DNA from: Bifidobacterium actinocoloniiforme DSM 22766
GTDB lineage: Bacteria; Actinomycetota; Actinomycetes; Actinomycetales; Bifidobacteriaceae
Assembly (NCBI RefSeq): GCF_001263395.1
Contig: NZ_CP011786.1
Coordinates: 372,001 to 436,000 of the forward strand
Length of the DNA stretch: 64,000 nt
Direction: 5' to 3'
Positions 53,474-58,520 of the stretch are shown piece after piece. Within the stretch, counting starts at the first letter, position 1. Every line of letters begins with the position of its first letter. The position numbers were made by a program, and so were the translations under genes. The notes below the pieces were generated by a model. That model had not been told where the DNA came from and ran no database searches. It saw only the letters and a program-made list of their open reading frames with translations.

Positions 53474-53501
53474 TTGACACATTCCGCTGATAGGGTAAGC
53501 T
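53474..53501 (+). promoter_or_regulatory. Promoter of the aromatic leader/aminotransferase operon
   Basis: TTGACA at 53474-53479 is a consensus -35; TAAGCT at 53496-53501 is a possible -10 at 16-base spacing. This would give a leader RNA of about 235 bases before the aminotransferase gene. Confidence 0.55.
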
Positions 53502-53535
53502 AAAACCCACGTTTACTTTTTGAGGAGGGTTTGTT

Positions 53536-53601
53536 ATGGCACATCTGTCAATGTCAACCCTGTCTCGATTTAGCTATTGGTGGCGCAGACTGATTCTGTA
53601 G
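53536..53601 (+). CDS. Attenuator leader peptide with Phe, Tyr and tandem Trp
   Basis: A 21-codon frame with a strong ribosome site (GAGGAGGG, about eight bases upstream of the ATG). The C-terminal half reads SRFSYWWRRLIL: one Phe, one Tyr and two consecutive Trp, which is the layout of classical transcription-attenuation leader peptides that sense charged aromatic tRNAs (compare the Trp runs in actinobacterial trp leaders). It ends at 53601, and self-complementary RNA segments start inside it. The downstream gene is an aminotransferase, not a biosynthetic trp gene, which makes the control unusual. Confidence 0.75.
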   Translation: MAHLSMSTLSRFSYWWRRLIL

Positions 53602-53623
53602 CCCCAGGCTTCAAGTGAACGGG

Positions 53624-53715
53624 CGCACAGATCAGCGGCGAATCTGACTGTGCGGTCTCGCTCTAAACCTTTGGCGATTGTTACCCCCCGCAGCCGGAGA
53701 AGCTGCGGGGTTTTT
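53624..53715 (+). terminator. Attenuator hairpins and intrinsic terminator
   Basis: Segment B (CGCACAGATCAG, 53624-53635) can pair with segment C (CTGACTGTGCG, 53644-53654) in an 11-bp helix with one bulge. B can instead pair with segment A (CTGATTCTGT, 53590-53599) inside the end of the leader ORF. The terminator at 53686-53715 is CCCCGCAGC paired with GCTGCGGGG plus TTTTT; its 5' arm contains CCGCA, complementary to TGCGG overlapping C. The alternative pairings are the signature of attenuation; which state terminates is not settled by inspection. Confidence 0.7.
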
Positions 53716-53744
53716 CGTAAACAACGGACGGAGGCAATACAACC

Positions 53745-54905
53745 ATGAGCACAGTGGAGATGAACGAACGGGTCAGAGCCCAGAAGCCCAGCGACATACT
53801 GGGGTTCAACGCCGAGATCAGCGCGATTGATGGGATTGTGAAACTGACGCTCGGGGAGCCTGACTTCCCGACGCCGGAGCACGTGAAGGAAGCTGCGATC
53901 CGGTCCATTCAGGCCAACGAGTCCCACTACACGCCTAGCCGGGGCCTGCCTCAACTGCGGCAGGCGGCCGCTGACTTCCTGGAAGCCAAGTACGGGACCC
54001 GGTACGATCCGGACACGCAAATCCTGGTCACCGCCGGTGCGACCGGAGGAATTTACTCCACCCTTACCGCCATCCTGAACCCTGGTGACACGGTCTTCAT
54101 TCCCACTCCGATCTTCCCTCTCTACATACCGATCACCCAACTGGCCGGAGGCTCAGTCGTTTTCATCGACACTTCCGACGACGGCTTCATCCTGACGCCG
54201 GCCAAGTTGGAGGCCGCCATTCAAGAGCACCCTGATACGGCAAAGGCCCTGGTCCTGAACTTCCCGACCAACCCCACAGGCGTGACCTACAACCGTGAGC
54301 AACTCCAGGGCCTAGCCCAGGTGGCTCGCGCCCATGGGCTGCTCGTCCTATCCGACGAGATTTACTCCGAATTGACCTACGAAGGCACCCACGTGTCAAT
54401 GGGGCAAGTCATGCCTGAGCGCACGATTGTGCTCAACGGTGTGTCCAAGTCCCATGCGATGACTGGCTGGCGAATCGGCCTGGCGGCTGGGCCGGCCGAC
54501 CTGATTGAGCAAATCGGCAAGGTCAGCGAATTCTCAATCACCTGCGCCACCGCCAACGCCCAGTACGCGGCCCTTGAAGCCCTGGGGCACGGACAGGACG
54601 ACGCCGAACCTATGCGTCAGGCTTACCGTGAGCGCAGGGACTTCCTGGTCCCGGCACTGCGCCAGGCGGGTCTGGAGTCCACCGACCCGCAAGGGGCCTT
54701 CTATCTGTTTGTCAAGCTGCCCGAGCGAATGAAGGACTCCTGGAAGTTCGCTTATTCCCTGGCCCGCGAAGCCGGGGTGGCGGTCATCCCGGGGGCCAGC
54801 TTTGGTCCCGGCGGGGATGGATACGTGCGTATCTCCTACGCGGCTTCGATGGAAGACTTGCGAACGGCGACGGAGCGAATCGCGGCCTATATGCGCGCCC
54901 ACTGA
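53745..54905 (+). CDS. PLP-dependent aminotransferase, AraT/PatA-like (class I/II)
   Basis: A 386-residue aminotransferase. PLP-binding residues are N176 in NFPTNPTG, D204 and Y207 in LSDEIYSEL, the Schiff-base K235 in GVSKSHAMTGWRIG, and the substrate carboxylate-binding Arg in YVRISYA near the C-terminus. The beginning (KLTLGEPDFPTPEHVKEAAIRSI) and overall length match the lactic-acid-bacterial aromatic aminotransferase AraT/PatA group. It would transfer amino groups from aromatic or branched amino acids to a 2-oxoacid. It is the first structural gene after the aromatic leader. Exact substrate is inferred from the leader and the D-2-hydroxyacid dehydrogenase next to it. Confidence 0.85.
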   Translation: MSTVEMNERVRAQKPSDILGFNAEISAIDGIVKLTLGEPDFPTPEHVKEAAIRSIQANESHYTPSRGLPQLRQAAADFLEAKYGTRYDPDTQILVTAGATGGIYSTLTAILNPGDTVFIPTPIFPLYIPITQLAGGSVVFIDTSDDGFILTPAKLEAAIQEHPDTAKALVLNFPTNPTGVTYNREQLQGLAQVARAHGLLVLSDEIYSELTYEGTHVSMGQVMPERTIVLNGVSKSHAMTGWRIGLAAGPADLIEQIGKVSEFSITCATANAQYAALEALGHGQDDAEPMRQAYRERRDFLVPALRQAGLESTDPQGAFYLFVKLPERMKDSWKFAYSLAREAGVAVIPGASFGPGGDGYVRISYAASMEDLRTATERIAAYMRAH

Positions 54906-54998
54906 CAGGCGGCCGTCCAGGGGGGGGGGAGACAAGGCCTCTGGGGTTCATGAAATGTAGTGCAAGAACGGTAGAGCGGTAAAGGAAGAAAGGTAATC

Positions 54999-55991
54999 AT
55001 GCCGAAAATTCTGATGTACTCGGTGAGGCCCGACGAGATGCCCGTCATTGAGGCGTGGTCCCAAGCCAATCGCATCCAGGTGGACACGAACGAGGTGGAG
55101 TTCAACGCTTCCACAGTGGACCTGGTCAAAGGCTACGACGGCCTGGTCATTCAGCAGCATGGCTCGATTGGTGGGCCGGAGGTTTATGCCAAGCTCAAGG
55201 CTTACGGCCTGCGGCAGATTGGCCTGCGCATCACCGGATACGACATCATCGACCTGGACCAGGCACGTGCGAATGGCCTGGTAGTGACTAACGTCCCGGC
55301 CTACTCGCCCCGTTCGGTGGCGGAGTTGGTCCTGGCGCACGTCATGCGCCTGGTCCGGCACCTGGGCGAGTCAACGGCCCGGCAGGAACGCGGTGACTTC
55401 TCCTGGACCGGTCTTGAGGCCCATGAGATTCACAACATGACCATCGGCATCATCGGCGCTGGCAAGATCGGCTCAACCGTGGCCCGCATCTTCAAGGCCC
55501 TGGGCGCCACCGTAATCGCCAACGACCCCATCCACCGGCCCGAACTGGCCGATGCGCTGGACTACGTCGGCTTGGACGAACTGTTGATGCGCTCGGATGT
55601 CGTCACCGTCCATACGCCCCTGGACCAGAGCACCCATCATCTGATCGACGCGGATGCCCTAGCCAAGATGAAGTCCACGGCCTTCCTGATCGACGCTGCG
55701 CGCGGACCCATCGTCGACACGAAGGCCTTGATCGAGGCTCTCAAATCCGGTGGAATCGCCGGAGCCGCGATGGATTCAGTCGAAGGCGAGGCTGGCATCT
55801 TCGGTGAGGATCGCTCCGCCGAAGGCTACGATAACCCCGATTTGAGGACCTTGGAGGCTATGGATAACGTAGAAGTCTCACCGCACATCGGTTTCTACAC
55901 TGACGCGGCGGTCAAGAACATGGTCGAAATCGCTCTGGATGACGTCAAAACCATCCTGTCCGGGGGAATCAGCGAACACCAGGTCGACTGA
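54999..55991 (+). CDS. D-2-hydroxyacid dehydrogenase (D-lactate dehydrogenase-like)
   Basis: A 330-residue NAD-dependent D-2-hydroxyacid dehydrogenase. The Rossmann motif is IGIIGAGKIGST (149-160), with Asp176 after strand 2 indicating NAD. Catalytic residues R235 (AARGPIVD), E264 (DSVEGEAGIF) and H296 (SPHIGFYT) are all present. The sequence is close to D-LDH/D-hydroxyisocaproate dehydrogenases of lactobacilli. Following an aminotransferase, it would reduce the resulting 2-oxoacid (such as indolepyruvate, phenylpyruvate or branched 2-oxoacids) to a D-hydroxyacid, regenerating NAD+. A run of nine G lies about 70 bases upstream of the start. Good ribosome site (GGAAGAAAGG). Confidence 0.9.
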   Translation: MPKILMYSVRPDEMPVIEAWSQANRIQVDTNEVEFNASTVDLVKGYDGLVIQQHGSIGGPEVYAKLKAYGLRQIGLRITGYDIIDLDQARANGLVVTNVPAYSPRSVAELVLAHVMRLVRHLGESTARQERGDFSWTGLEAHEIHNMTIGIIGAGKIGSTVARIFKALGATVIANDPIHRPELADALDYVGLDELLMRSDVVTVHTPLDQSTHHLIDADALAKMKSTAFLIDAARGPIVDTKALIEALKSGGIAGAAMDSVEGEAGIFGEDRSAEGYDNPDLRTLEAMDNVEVSPHIGFYTDAAVKNMVEIALDDVKTILSGGISEHQVD

Positions 55992-56104
55992 TCGCAGACG
56001 GCGGCCGGGCCTGTTCCGGTCGCCGCCCGCCCCATCAACAACTCCAGCTCCCAATGTAACCCCGAGCCGTCCGCAGCCGCGGACCCTATGGAAAGACAAC
56101 CAGT

Positions 56105-57253
56105 ATGAACACCACAAGCGTGAGCCCGGCCACCTCCGACGGTCCAACGCCAGCATCCAGCATAAAGGCCACTAACAGCCAAGAAACCCCGACCCCGGCC
56201 CAGGATTCGTTCTCGACCAAGGCCAAGGCCATGATCATGGACATCCTGAACGGCTTGTCAACCGGTATCATCGTGGCCCTGGTGCCCGGAGCACTGCTGA
56301 ACGCCCTGGTCAAGTACCTCCTGCCGGTCGCGCCCTGGCTGCGACCGATTCCGACCATGACCGGCATGGCCCAGGTCCTCCTGCCGGCTGTCAGTGCCGT
56401 GTGCGTGGGGATGATCGCCAAGTTCACCCCCATCCAGACCTCCTCCTTGGCCCTGGCCGCCGCCCTCGGAGCCGGCAATTGGAAAGTCTCTGGCAAAGGG
56501 TTGGCCCTGGCCGGCCCTGGGGACGTGATCAACTTGGCTGTGACCATAGCTGTAGGGTATCTGGTGCTCAAACTACTTGGCGACATGCTCAAGACCTATA
56601 CGATCCTCTTGCTGCCGACGCTGGTGATCCTGATCGCGGGCGGCATCGGGATGCTTACCTACGGGCCGGTCTCCTCGCTAACCCGCTGGGTCGGCGCAGG
56701 CGTGAACGCCTTGACCTCCTTCCAGCCGGTGCCTATGGGCGTGCTGATGGGCGCGGCCTTCGCTCTGATTATCGTCAGCCCGATCTCCTCGGTCGGCATC
56801 GCCGCCGCGATAGGCGTGACCGGCATCGCTGCGGGTTCGGCGAACCTGGGAATCACAGCGGCGGCCCTGGCTCTGGCCATTTACGGGCGTGAAACCAACT
56901 CCGTGGGCACCAGCCTGGCCCATTTCCTGGGATCGCCCAAGATTCAAATGGCCAATTTGCTCTCGCGGCCCAAGCTCCTGCTGCCCTTGACGATCAACGC
57001 CGCGATCATGGGTGGTGTCGGCGCGGCCTGTGGGATCCAGGGTACCCCCGCTTCAGCTGGTTTCGGCCTGTCGGGATTGATCGGCCCCCTGGCCGCGATC
57101 GAGGCCCAAGGAGGCTTCACCACAGCCCATGTCCTGGAAGCGGCCCTGCTCTTCGCGATCCTGCCCGTAGCCCTGGGCTACTTAAGCGACCTGATTTTCA
57201 CCCGGCTCCTGGACTACCAGAAGCCCGAATACTACGCAATCACCTACTCCTGA
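56105..57253 (+). CDS. PTS EIIC-like (PF13303-type) membrane protein
   Basis: A 382-residue membrane protein with about nine hydrophobic segments and a disordered Ser/Thr/Pro-rich N-terminus of about 40 residues. It looks like the EIIC_2-type family, PTS-like permeases without EIIA/EIIB partners: IVALVPGALLNALVKYL, FTPIQTSSLALAAALGAG, GRETNSVGTSLAHFLGSPKIQMANLL and IQGTPASAGFGLSGLIGPLAAI are conserved-looking features. No PTS phosphorylation domain is nearby. Positioned after an aminotransferase and a D-2-hydroxyacid dehydrogenase, it may carry an amino acid or its hydroxyacid product rather than a sugar. Confidence 0.8.
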   Translation: MNTTSVSPATSDGPTPASSIKATNSQETPTPAQDSFSTKAKAMIMDILNGLSTGIIVALVPGALLNALVKYLLPVAPWLRPIPTMTGMAQVLLPAVSAVCVGMIAKFTPIQTSSLALAAALGAGNWKVSGKGLALAGPGDVINLAVTIAVGYLVLKLLGDMLKTYTILLLPTLVILIAGGIGMLTYGPVSSLTRWVGAGVNALTSFQPVPMGVLMGAAFALIIVSPISSVGIAAAIGVTGIAAGSANLGITAAALALAIYGRETNSVGTSLAHFLGSPKIQMANLLSRPKLLLPLTINAAIMGGVGAACGIQGTPASAGFGLSGLIGPLAAIEAQGGFTTAHVLEAALLFAILPVALGYLSDLIFTRLLDYQKPEYYAITYS

Positions 57254-57260
57254 TCGCCGC

Positions 57261-57291
57261 GACCCCACCAACCGTTAGGATGGGTGGGGTC
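57261..57291 (+). terminator. Hairpin after the EIIC-like gene
   Basis: GACCCCACC pairs with GGTGGGGTC over a 13-base loop; no T-run follows, so it is a weak terminator or an RNA-processing site before the MalY-like gene. Confidence 0.5.
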
Positions 57292-57335
57292 GGACAGCGG
57301 GGGAGCGCCCCGCTCTAAAGGGAGGGGCGAGCCCT

Positions 57336-58520
57336 ATGAGCAAACCGGACGAGTACGACTTCACCAGCCTGGTGGACCGCAGGGGGACTAATTCCTACAA
57401 GTGGGACGTGGCTACCGGCGAGCTGCCGATGTGGGTGGCGGACATGGACTTCCGCACGGCTCCGGAGATCATCAATGCCATGCGCCGGAAGCTGGACCAG
57501 GGCGTCTTCGGCTATGAGGAGGTGTCCGAGAGCTACTACCAGGCTGTGGCCGACTGGTACGGCCGCGAGCATGGGGCGCGTCCTTGCACTGAGTGGATGC
57601 TCTTCGTCAACGGTGTTGTGCCTGCGCTCTCCTCGCTGGTGCGCCGCCTGACTCAGCCGGGCGATCAAGTGTTGGTTCAGGCTCCGGTCTATGACATCTT
57701 CTTCCATTCGATCGAGAACAACGGCCGGCACGTGCTTTCGAGTGACCTGGTCTACGACCCCGGCAGCCACCGCTACCATGTCGACGAGCAGGACTTGGAG
57801 GCCAAGCTGGCCGAACCCTTGACCAGGATGATGATCCTGTGCAACCCTCACAACCCAGCTGGCAAGGTGTGGTCCCGCCAGGAGTTGGAGCGCACAGCGA
57901 GCCTGTGCGAACGTCATGGGGTGAGCCTGGTCAGCGACGAGATCCACGGTGACCTGGTCTTCGGCCAGCCCCAGTACACCCCCCTGTTCGCTTTGCCTCC
58001 TGAACTCCTGGGACACGCGGTCAGCCTTGTTTCCCCATCCAAAAGCTTCAACCTGGCCGCCCTGCACGCGGCCACGATCGTCGCTCCGGGCGAGCGCATG
58101 CGCGAGTCGATCAGCCGGGGCATCAACAACGACGAGCTGGCTGAGCCCAATCTCCTGGCGGTGCCGGGCACAATCGCCGCCTATGAGGAGGCGGGCCCCT
58201 GGCTGCATGCCCTCTTAGGTCAGCTGGAACGCAGCCGCTCTCGGGCCGTCGCCTGCCTCGAAGGCATCGACGGGGTCGAGGCGGCCAACGAGAACGCTAC
58301 CTACCTGCTCTGGATGGATATCAGCGCCCTGGGGGCGAAAGCCGATCAGGTGGCCGCCTTCATCCGTGAGGACACTGGCCTCTACCTATCCAGCGGATCA
58401 ATCTATAGGGGGAATGGGGACCACTTCCTGCGGATGAACTTGGCTTGCCCGCCCAGTGAGCTGGAGGACGGCCTGGAGCGCCTGGCCAGGGGAGTGCGCG
58501 ACTTCCGGGCCAGGCGGTAA
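57336..58520 (+). CDS. MalY/PatB-like PLP-dependent aminotransferase (C-S lyase)
   Basis: A 394-residue fold-type I PLP enzyme of the MalY/PatB group. Markers are LPMWVADMDFRTAPEIINAM, FGYEEVSESYYQAV, ILCNPHNPAGKVWSRQEL, SDEIHGDLVF and the Schiff-base lysine in SPSKSFNLAAL. Such proteins cleave cystathionine or cysteine conjugates, or act as aminotransferases. AGGGAGGGG lies ten bases before the ATG. Downstream of the EIIC-like gene in the same orientation, it may belong to the same amino-acid-catabolic unit, though a hairpin lies between them. Confidence 0.87.
   Translation: MSKPDEYDFTSLVDRRGTNSYKWDVATGELPMWVADMDFRTAPEIINAMRRKLDQGVFGYEEVSESYYQAVADWYGREHGARPCTEWMLFVNGVVPALSSLVRRLTQPGDQVLVQAPVYDIFFHSIENNGRHVLSSDLVYDPGSHRYHVDEQDLEAKLAEPLTRMMILCNPHNPAGKVWSRQELERTASLCERHGVSLVSDEIHGDLVFGQPQYTPLFALPPELLGHAVSLVSPSKSFNLAALHAATIVAPGERMRESISRGINNDELAEPNLLAVPGTIAAYEEAGPWLHALLGQLERSRSRAVACLEGIDGVEAANENATYLLWMDISALGAKADQVAAFIREDTGLYLSSGSIYRGNGDHFLRMNLACPPSELEDGLERLARGVRDFRARR

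Follow-up and report, generated by a model that had tools for sequence, protein, structure and literature searches.

Aromatic lactates are much studied as microbial products that act on the host, and amino acid breakdown is the usual picture of how they arise. A locus of Bifidobacterium actinocoloniiforme DSM 22766, a bumblebee gut isolate (PMC4582582) whose genome is a single contig of 1,830,060 bases, raises the question of when the genes for such chemistry are expressed and which direction of the reaction they serve. Within a 64,000-nt stretch of this genome (the window, to whose positions all coordinates refer), genes for an AraT/PatA-like aminotransferase (AT), a D-2-hydroxyacid dehydrogenase (DH), and an EIIC-like membrane protein follow a short leader peptide with a cluster of aromatic codons. 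The reading favored here, with a probability of roughly 0.78, is that a ribosome-mediated transcription attenuator of the his/phe type controls an aromatic 2-oxo acid operon and that both were acquired from Lactobacillaceae. The proposed regulatory mechanism, taken by itself, is highly probable, and a net direction toward the amino acid (salvage) when the operon is on is given about even odds. Genome comparison, on which this reading rests, reveals the predicted aromatic leader, a chain of competing helices, their association with AT, DH, and EIIC, and the nesting of AT within Lactobacillaceae.

Aromatic leader and competing helices

The leader is followed by two hairpins and then by an intrinsic terminator located before AT (Table 1), and the folding energy of the leader RNA lies 2.8 standard deviations below that of dinucleotide shuffles. 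Across 56 distinct aromatic leaders from related loci, the last 12 codons of the leader frame hold 5.34 aromatic codons, compared with 1.93 and 1.18 in the two alternative frames, so that the aromatic enrichment of the predicted leader is far beyond chance. Phe codons are present in all 56, Tyr codons in 52, and Trp codons in 49, and the clusters take forms such as RFSYWW, RYYFWFF, FYFWFF, and AFSFAF.

Six segments, designated A to F, can form a chain of mutually exclusive helices (A:B, B:C, C:D, D:E, and the terminator E:F), an alternation that is that of a his-type attenuator. A clear A:B hairpin is found in seven of the eight representatives folded locally, although their sequences differ. 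For C:D and E:F, 96.1% of cells are paired (28-42% when slid), nine pairs are changed on both sides (4.7 in shuffles), and the covariation score of 0.41, compared with 0.25, was reached in none of 500 shuffles. The B:C helix exceeds 95% of its own shuffles in stability at 55 of 58 loci, where control pairings achieve this at 0-8, and it beats swapped partners at 44 loci; D:E receives shuffle support in 51 of the 58. When single sequences were folded under constraint with a masked ribosome, the switch was not cleanly reproduced because long-range pairs of the minimum-free-energy (MFE) structure dominate, and reliance is therefore placed on the comparative tests.

These helices suggest how the switch would operate. 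When the Phe, Tyr, and Trp tRNAs are charged, the ribosome would reach the leader stop codon and cover B, allowing C:D to form and the E:F terminator to end transcription. When aromatic tRNAs are scarce, it would instead stall in the F-Y-W-W cluster with A covered and B free, whereupon B:C would form, D would pair with E, and the operon would be transcribed. An initial annotation of this DNA had proposed a 21-codon leader, competing hairpins, and an intrinsic terminator acting as an aromatic-codon attenuator on an aminotransferase and D-2-hydroxyacid dehydrogenase operon. All these elements are present, with support from folding, covariation, and swap and shuffle controls, and conservation of the leader and helices argues for the attenuator as a whole.

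The terminator has been lost in a B. asteroides-like group (L046-L058; such handles designate the loci compared), where a leader (RFTYWWHGFDL) is retained 5' of AT. A helix UUUCCCGUGC:GCAUGGGAAA that covers the ribosome-binding site could take over its role there, which is only a suggestion; the whole fold containing this helix is not more stable than shuffles.

Distribution and origin

The RNA was searched for with covariance models built from seven and then nine sequences. Of the 27 genomes examined from the genus (B. actinocoloniiforme DSM 22766 included), 18 carry it, as do, at E values of at most 1e-4, 70 of the 397 Lactobacillaceae genomes sampled. The leader's aromatic codons, whose conservation in close relatives the initial annotation had made decisive, are thus retained in congeners, and the same leader upstream of the same gene pair recurs in the genus and in Lactobacillaceae. 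Among 77 loci examined, 57 precede AT (51), EIIC (4), or DH (2), and one further aromatic leader ends at a contig edge. Six weak model matches elsewhere in Bifidobacteriaceae were rejected, being fortuitous hits on tRNA genes or on terminators unrelated to the element. Leaders 5' of AT in congeners include RFSYWWRRLDL (L044), RFSYWQSRRDL (L091), and DWRFRYRLH (L045); none stands 5' of AT in L092 or L090, and the L090 leader (MAMWFTHSFRR...) lies between AT and EIIC.

Gene order is shared along with the RNA. Orthologues of AT (70-81% identity) occur in 19 of the 27 genus genomes and those of DH (69-78%) in 16, adjacent wherever both occur. The 19 Lactobacillaceae loci with enough sequence show the orders AT-DH-EIIC (6), AT-DH (9), AT-EIIC (2), and EIIC alone (2); the window order is therefore one that also occurs in lactobacilli, with a MalY gene added. 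EIIC accompanies the attenuator in L003, L090, L152, L163, and L171 as well as in Lactobacillaceae operons. The element was also found in a Lactobacillaceae metagenome-assembled genome (MAG; L002), in a Lactobacillus MAG (L003) where the leader is directly 5' of DH-EIIC, and on a Lactobacillus helveticus plasmid (L106) where the leader is annotated merely as a hypothetical protein. Other Bifidobacteriaceae (L093-L102) carry a distant AT-DH pair (45-51% DH identity) without the attenuator RNA.

Bee bifidobacteria constitute a single clade of the AT tree (support 100/97) inside a larger Lactobacillaceae clade, where five sequences from Lactobacillaceae (the L138-L142/L106 group) join them at 100/100; the DH tree gives the same outline at lower support. 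The most economical reading of these trees is that bee bifidobacteria acquired the operon and its attenuator from Lactobacillaceae. The L. helveticus plasmid carries the unit flanked by insertion sequence (IS) elements and offers a possible vehicle of transfer. An RNA switch and its operon would thus have moved together between two phyla with common gut habitats.

Weaker model matches indicate that the sensor codons follow gene function. Ser-rich leaders with the same RNA architecture precede phosphoserine transaminase (serC) in Lactobacillaceae (L190, L191, L195, L202, and L203). In Philodulcilactobacillus myokoensis (L136, 1501-1644, minus strand), the same RNA class has a Leu-rich leader 5' of a 2-hydroxyacid dehydrogenase of the L-LDH family (HicDH-like), and lower-scoring members include an Ile-rich leader 5' of an unassigned gene (L161) and a Val-rich one (VVVVV) before an amino acid permease (L196). 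Matches before DAHP synthase (L188, L192, L194, and L200) lack a clear aromatic leader and were not counted as support.

Enzymes and direction of flux

Both reaction types of the operon, transamination and 2-hydroxyacid dehydrogenation, are reversible in their enzyme classes generally. DH matches both of its Pfam domains and retains the Arg-Glu-His catalytic set. It shares 56% identity with DLDH744 of Sporolactobacillus inulinus (PDB 4XKJ), and nine of nine active-site positions checked are identical (Gly79, Tyr101, Trp135, Arg234, Glu263, His295, Phe298, Tyr299, and Met307 of DLDH744). That enzyme converts phenylpyruvate to D-phenyllactate only, with a Km near that for pyruvate (PMC4580590), which makes D-type chemistry plausible for DH. 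The phenylpyruvate-specialist D-LDH1 has Ile307 (PMC9618312); because DH has Met308 at the equivalent position instead of the specialist's Ile, broad 2-oxo acid activity is likely. AT is placed at the family level only (521 bits against a cut-off of 576 for PRK07309) and is at that level a candidate AraT acting on Phe, Tyr, and Trp.

Prephenate dehydratase (PDT; PF00800) was not found in this genome, although it is present in all 26 other genus genomes and 14 of 14 controls, and TrpA was not found either. Because of these absences, the organism would be expected to require Phe and Trp, not to get rid of them. EIIC would move an aromatic 2-oxo or 2-hydroxy acid, DH would interconvert D-aryl-lactate and aryl-pyruvate, and AT would do the same for aryl-pyruvate and the corresponding amino acid. 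A shortage of aromatic amino acids should turn the operon on, and net flux in that state would therefore most likely run toward the amino acid. Such an on-state is the opposite of what a simple breakdown pathway needs, and switching on at low aromatic tRNA charging is more in keeping with salvage or anabolic use than with catabolism.

Rival accounts concern either the switch or the enzymes. That a chance short open reading frame merely precedes chance hairpins is practically negligible, refuted already by comparison in view of cross-phylum conservation and covariation. Also very improbable is a TnaC-like arrest peptide that responds to an abundance of a free aromatic metabolite by inducing catabolism: Trp residues do lie close to the leader end, but the C-terminal residues and the stop position vary (LIL, DL, Q, G, and LH) and track the RNA pairing segment rather than the peptide, the aromatic identities are interchangeable, and a ribosome held at the stop codon would cover B and favor termination. 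Because the aromatic residues interchange and the leader C-terminus and stop shift relative to the RNA, the evidence speaks for tRNA charging as the signal. A purely biosynthetic account, in which AT performs the last step of Phe and Tyr synthesis and is attenuated like other biosynthetic genes with DH and EIIC as passengers, would agree with the presence of prephenate dehydratase in 26 of 27 genus genomes, with the same RNA class before serC, and with loci where AT occurs without DH. It is nevertheless unlikely, given that the genome without PDT keeps an intact attenuator and operon, that Trp codons occur in most leaders (49 of 56) though Trp is not formed by transamination, and that the leader also controls DH-EIIC or EIIC alone (L003, L144, L090, and L163).

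The initial annotation had itself read the operon as a catabolic route from Trp, Phe, and Tyr to aromatic D-lactates under attenuation control. The active-site identity of DH with DLDH744, whose sole phenylpyruvate product is D-phenyllactate, accords with this proposal, as do the increase in indole derivatives by ArAT-positive bee lactobacilli (PMC9018956) and the loss of part of the presumed D-indolelactate peak in a B. longum D-2-hydroxyacid dehydrogenase mutant (PMC8620054). Its D-type chemistry therefore stands as plausible, but the catabolic direction does not fit an attenuator that would switch genes on at aromatic scarcity, a genome without PDT and TrpA, the occurrence of the same RNA class before serC, or a Met at the 307-equivalent as in enzymes other than phenylpyruvate specialists, and the catabolic route, one of several live readings, is considered somewhat unlikely. 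Several points weigh against the attenuator-and-salvage reading as well. The swap control for D:E is weak (36 of 58 loci) because both segments are conserved; the footprint geometry is tight, such that part of B would lie beneath a ribosome positioned at the last Trp codon; PDT and TrpA are present in most of the other carriers in the genus, for which salvage would thus not be the only use; and attenuation alone leaves room for aryl-lactate production, for example, in redox balance.

With these points included, the finding that AT and DH lie behind a switch for aromatic scarcity, both in bee bifidobacteria and in dozens of lactobacilli, yields a testable prediction of when the genes are on, and salvage is the function offered. 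More tentatively, and at less than even odds, a widespread attenuator class in Lactobacillaceae may couple tRNA charging to a reversible module of amino, 2-oxo, and 2-hydroxy acids, with which auxotrophs could rebuild scarce aromatic amino acids from the aryl-lactates and aryl-pyruvates of their neighbors. If so, genes credited with indole- and phenyl-lactate production would at least partly represent a salvage system for times of starvation, carried into bee-gut bifidobacteria together with its switch.

The gene layout itself largely agrees with the initial annotation, which had assigned AT, DH, EIIC, and MalY to one operon. The gene identities hold by profile matches and the DH catalytic set, but MalY appears to be loosely attached, and its membership is uncertain, because it follows EIIC only in the window, is separated from EIIC by a strong hairpin without a U-tract, and lies directly 3' of AT in the relative L091. 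Strong G+C-rich hairpins without U-tracts at 57260-57293 (after EIIC) and 56000-56030 (after DH) may stabilize or segment the transcript. A run of ten G residues at 54920-54929 between AT and DH, with none in the matching gap of L044, is a possible slippage or sequencing-sensitive site. The promoter-like pair was not picked up by a 9-of-12 consensus scan, and no solved relative of EIIC was found by sequence. A second class I/II aminotransferase homologue in the same genome (G000:C1:1386434-1387471) has an in-frame TAA inside the matched region.

Table 1. Features of the attenuator and operon, in window coordinates
Feature	Position	Strand	Remarks
Promoter-like pair TTGACA-16-TAAGCT	53474..53501	+	Read in the sequence; counterpart in sister species L044 is TTGACA-16-TAAACT
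Candidate ribosome-binding site of leader, GAGGAGGG	~53522-53529	+	
Predicted leader peptide MAHLSMSTLSRFSYWWRRLIL, 21 codons	53536..53601	+	ATG 53536 to TAG 53601; aromatic cluster conserved in genus and Lactobacillaceae
Leader aromatic codons	Phe 53569-53571, Tyr 53575-53577, Trp 53578-53580, Trp 53581-53583	+	
Segments A (GGCGCAGA, within leader) and B (CTGATTCTGTAGCCCC, leader end and stop codon)	53582..53605	+	A:B hairpin in MFE structure
Segment C (CGCACAGATCAG)	53624..53635	+	Partner B or D; B:C and C:D helices
Segment D (CTGACTGTGCGG)	53644..53655	+	Partner C, or E as antiterminator
Segments E and F, intrinsic terminator CCCCGCAGC-7-GCTGCGGGG-TTTTT	53686..53715	+	Covariation support
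AraT/PatA-like class I aminotransferase (AT)	53745..54905	+	PF00155; best NCBIfam model PRK07309, under its cut-off
D-2-hydroxyacid dehydrogenase (DH)	54999..55991	+	PF00389/PF02826; Arg235-Glu264-His296
EIIC-like membrane protein	56105..57253	+	PTS_EIIC_2 (PF13303); candidate pathway transporter
PatB/MalY-family C-S lyase (MalY)	57336..58520	+	TIGR04350 above cut-off; lineage-specific addition, operon membership uncertain

Comparison with known systems

No Rfam family reached its gathering score at this locus, the best sub-threshold matches being 22.0 of 49.5 and 20.7 of 59 bits. The latter is a weak alignment of the trpB ncRNA motif (RF04312) to the CGCACAG...CTGTGCG hairpin and the terminator (20.7 bits, gathering score 59, E of about 1.2), which is far under threshold and whose name ties it to a different gene. 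No covariance-model match to the T-box riboswitch was obtained in the window; the only T-box found lies elsewhere in the L136 locus. A description of the attenuator was not found in the literature searched, whose coverage excluded subscription papers.

Parts of the enzymatic chemistry have precedents. In lactic acid bacteria, neighboring genes for an aromatic aminotransferase and a D-2-hydroxyacid dehydrogenase (ArAT-fldH/HdhD) have been suggested to form an operon for indolelactate (PMC10040830); these pairs are not in bifidobacteria, and no attenuator was described for them (the word "leader" is absent from the main text). The bee-gut ArAT has likewise been studied in lactobacilli (PMC9018956). 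The established bifidobacterial enzyme, Aldh (type 4 LDH), performs the same overall conversion of aromatic amino acids to aromatic lactates, but it belongs to the L-type LDH family and to another gene cluster and comes from infant-gut species (PMC8556157). Bifidobacterial aryl-lactates are enantiomer mixtures, and the B. longum mutant formed less presumed D-indolelactate (PMC8620054). The novelty that the initial annotation had claimed for a D-type route was therefore overstated, this mutant and the ArAT/fldH adjacency being already known.

The attenuator itself is of a known mechanistic kind and is conserved; its RNA family is apparently undescribed, and the operon would have been acquired horizontally. 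Like the E. coli his, pheA, and trp attenuators and the His attenuators of Firmicutes (PMC9413887), it combines a leader rich in the regulated amino acids with competing hairpins and an intrinsic terminator, and some known attenuators of amino acid operons hide the ribosome-binding site instead of using a terminator. Unlike the E. coli and Firmicutes examples, it has a mixed Phe/Tyr/Trp leader, precedes an aminotransferase/hydroxyacid dehydrogenase operon, and is common to Lactobacillaceae and bee bifidobacteria.

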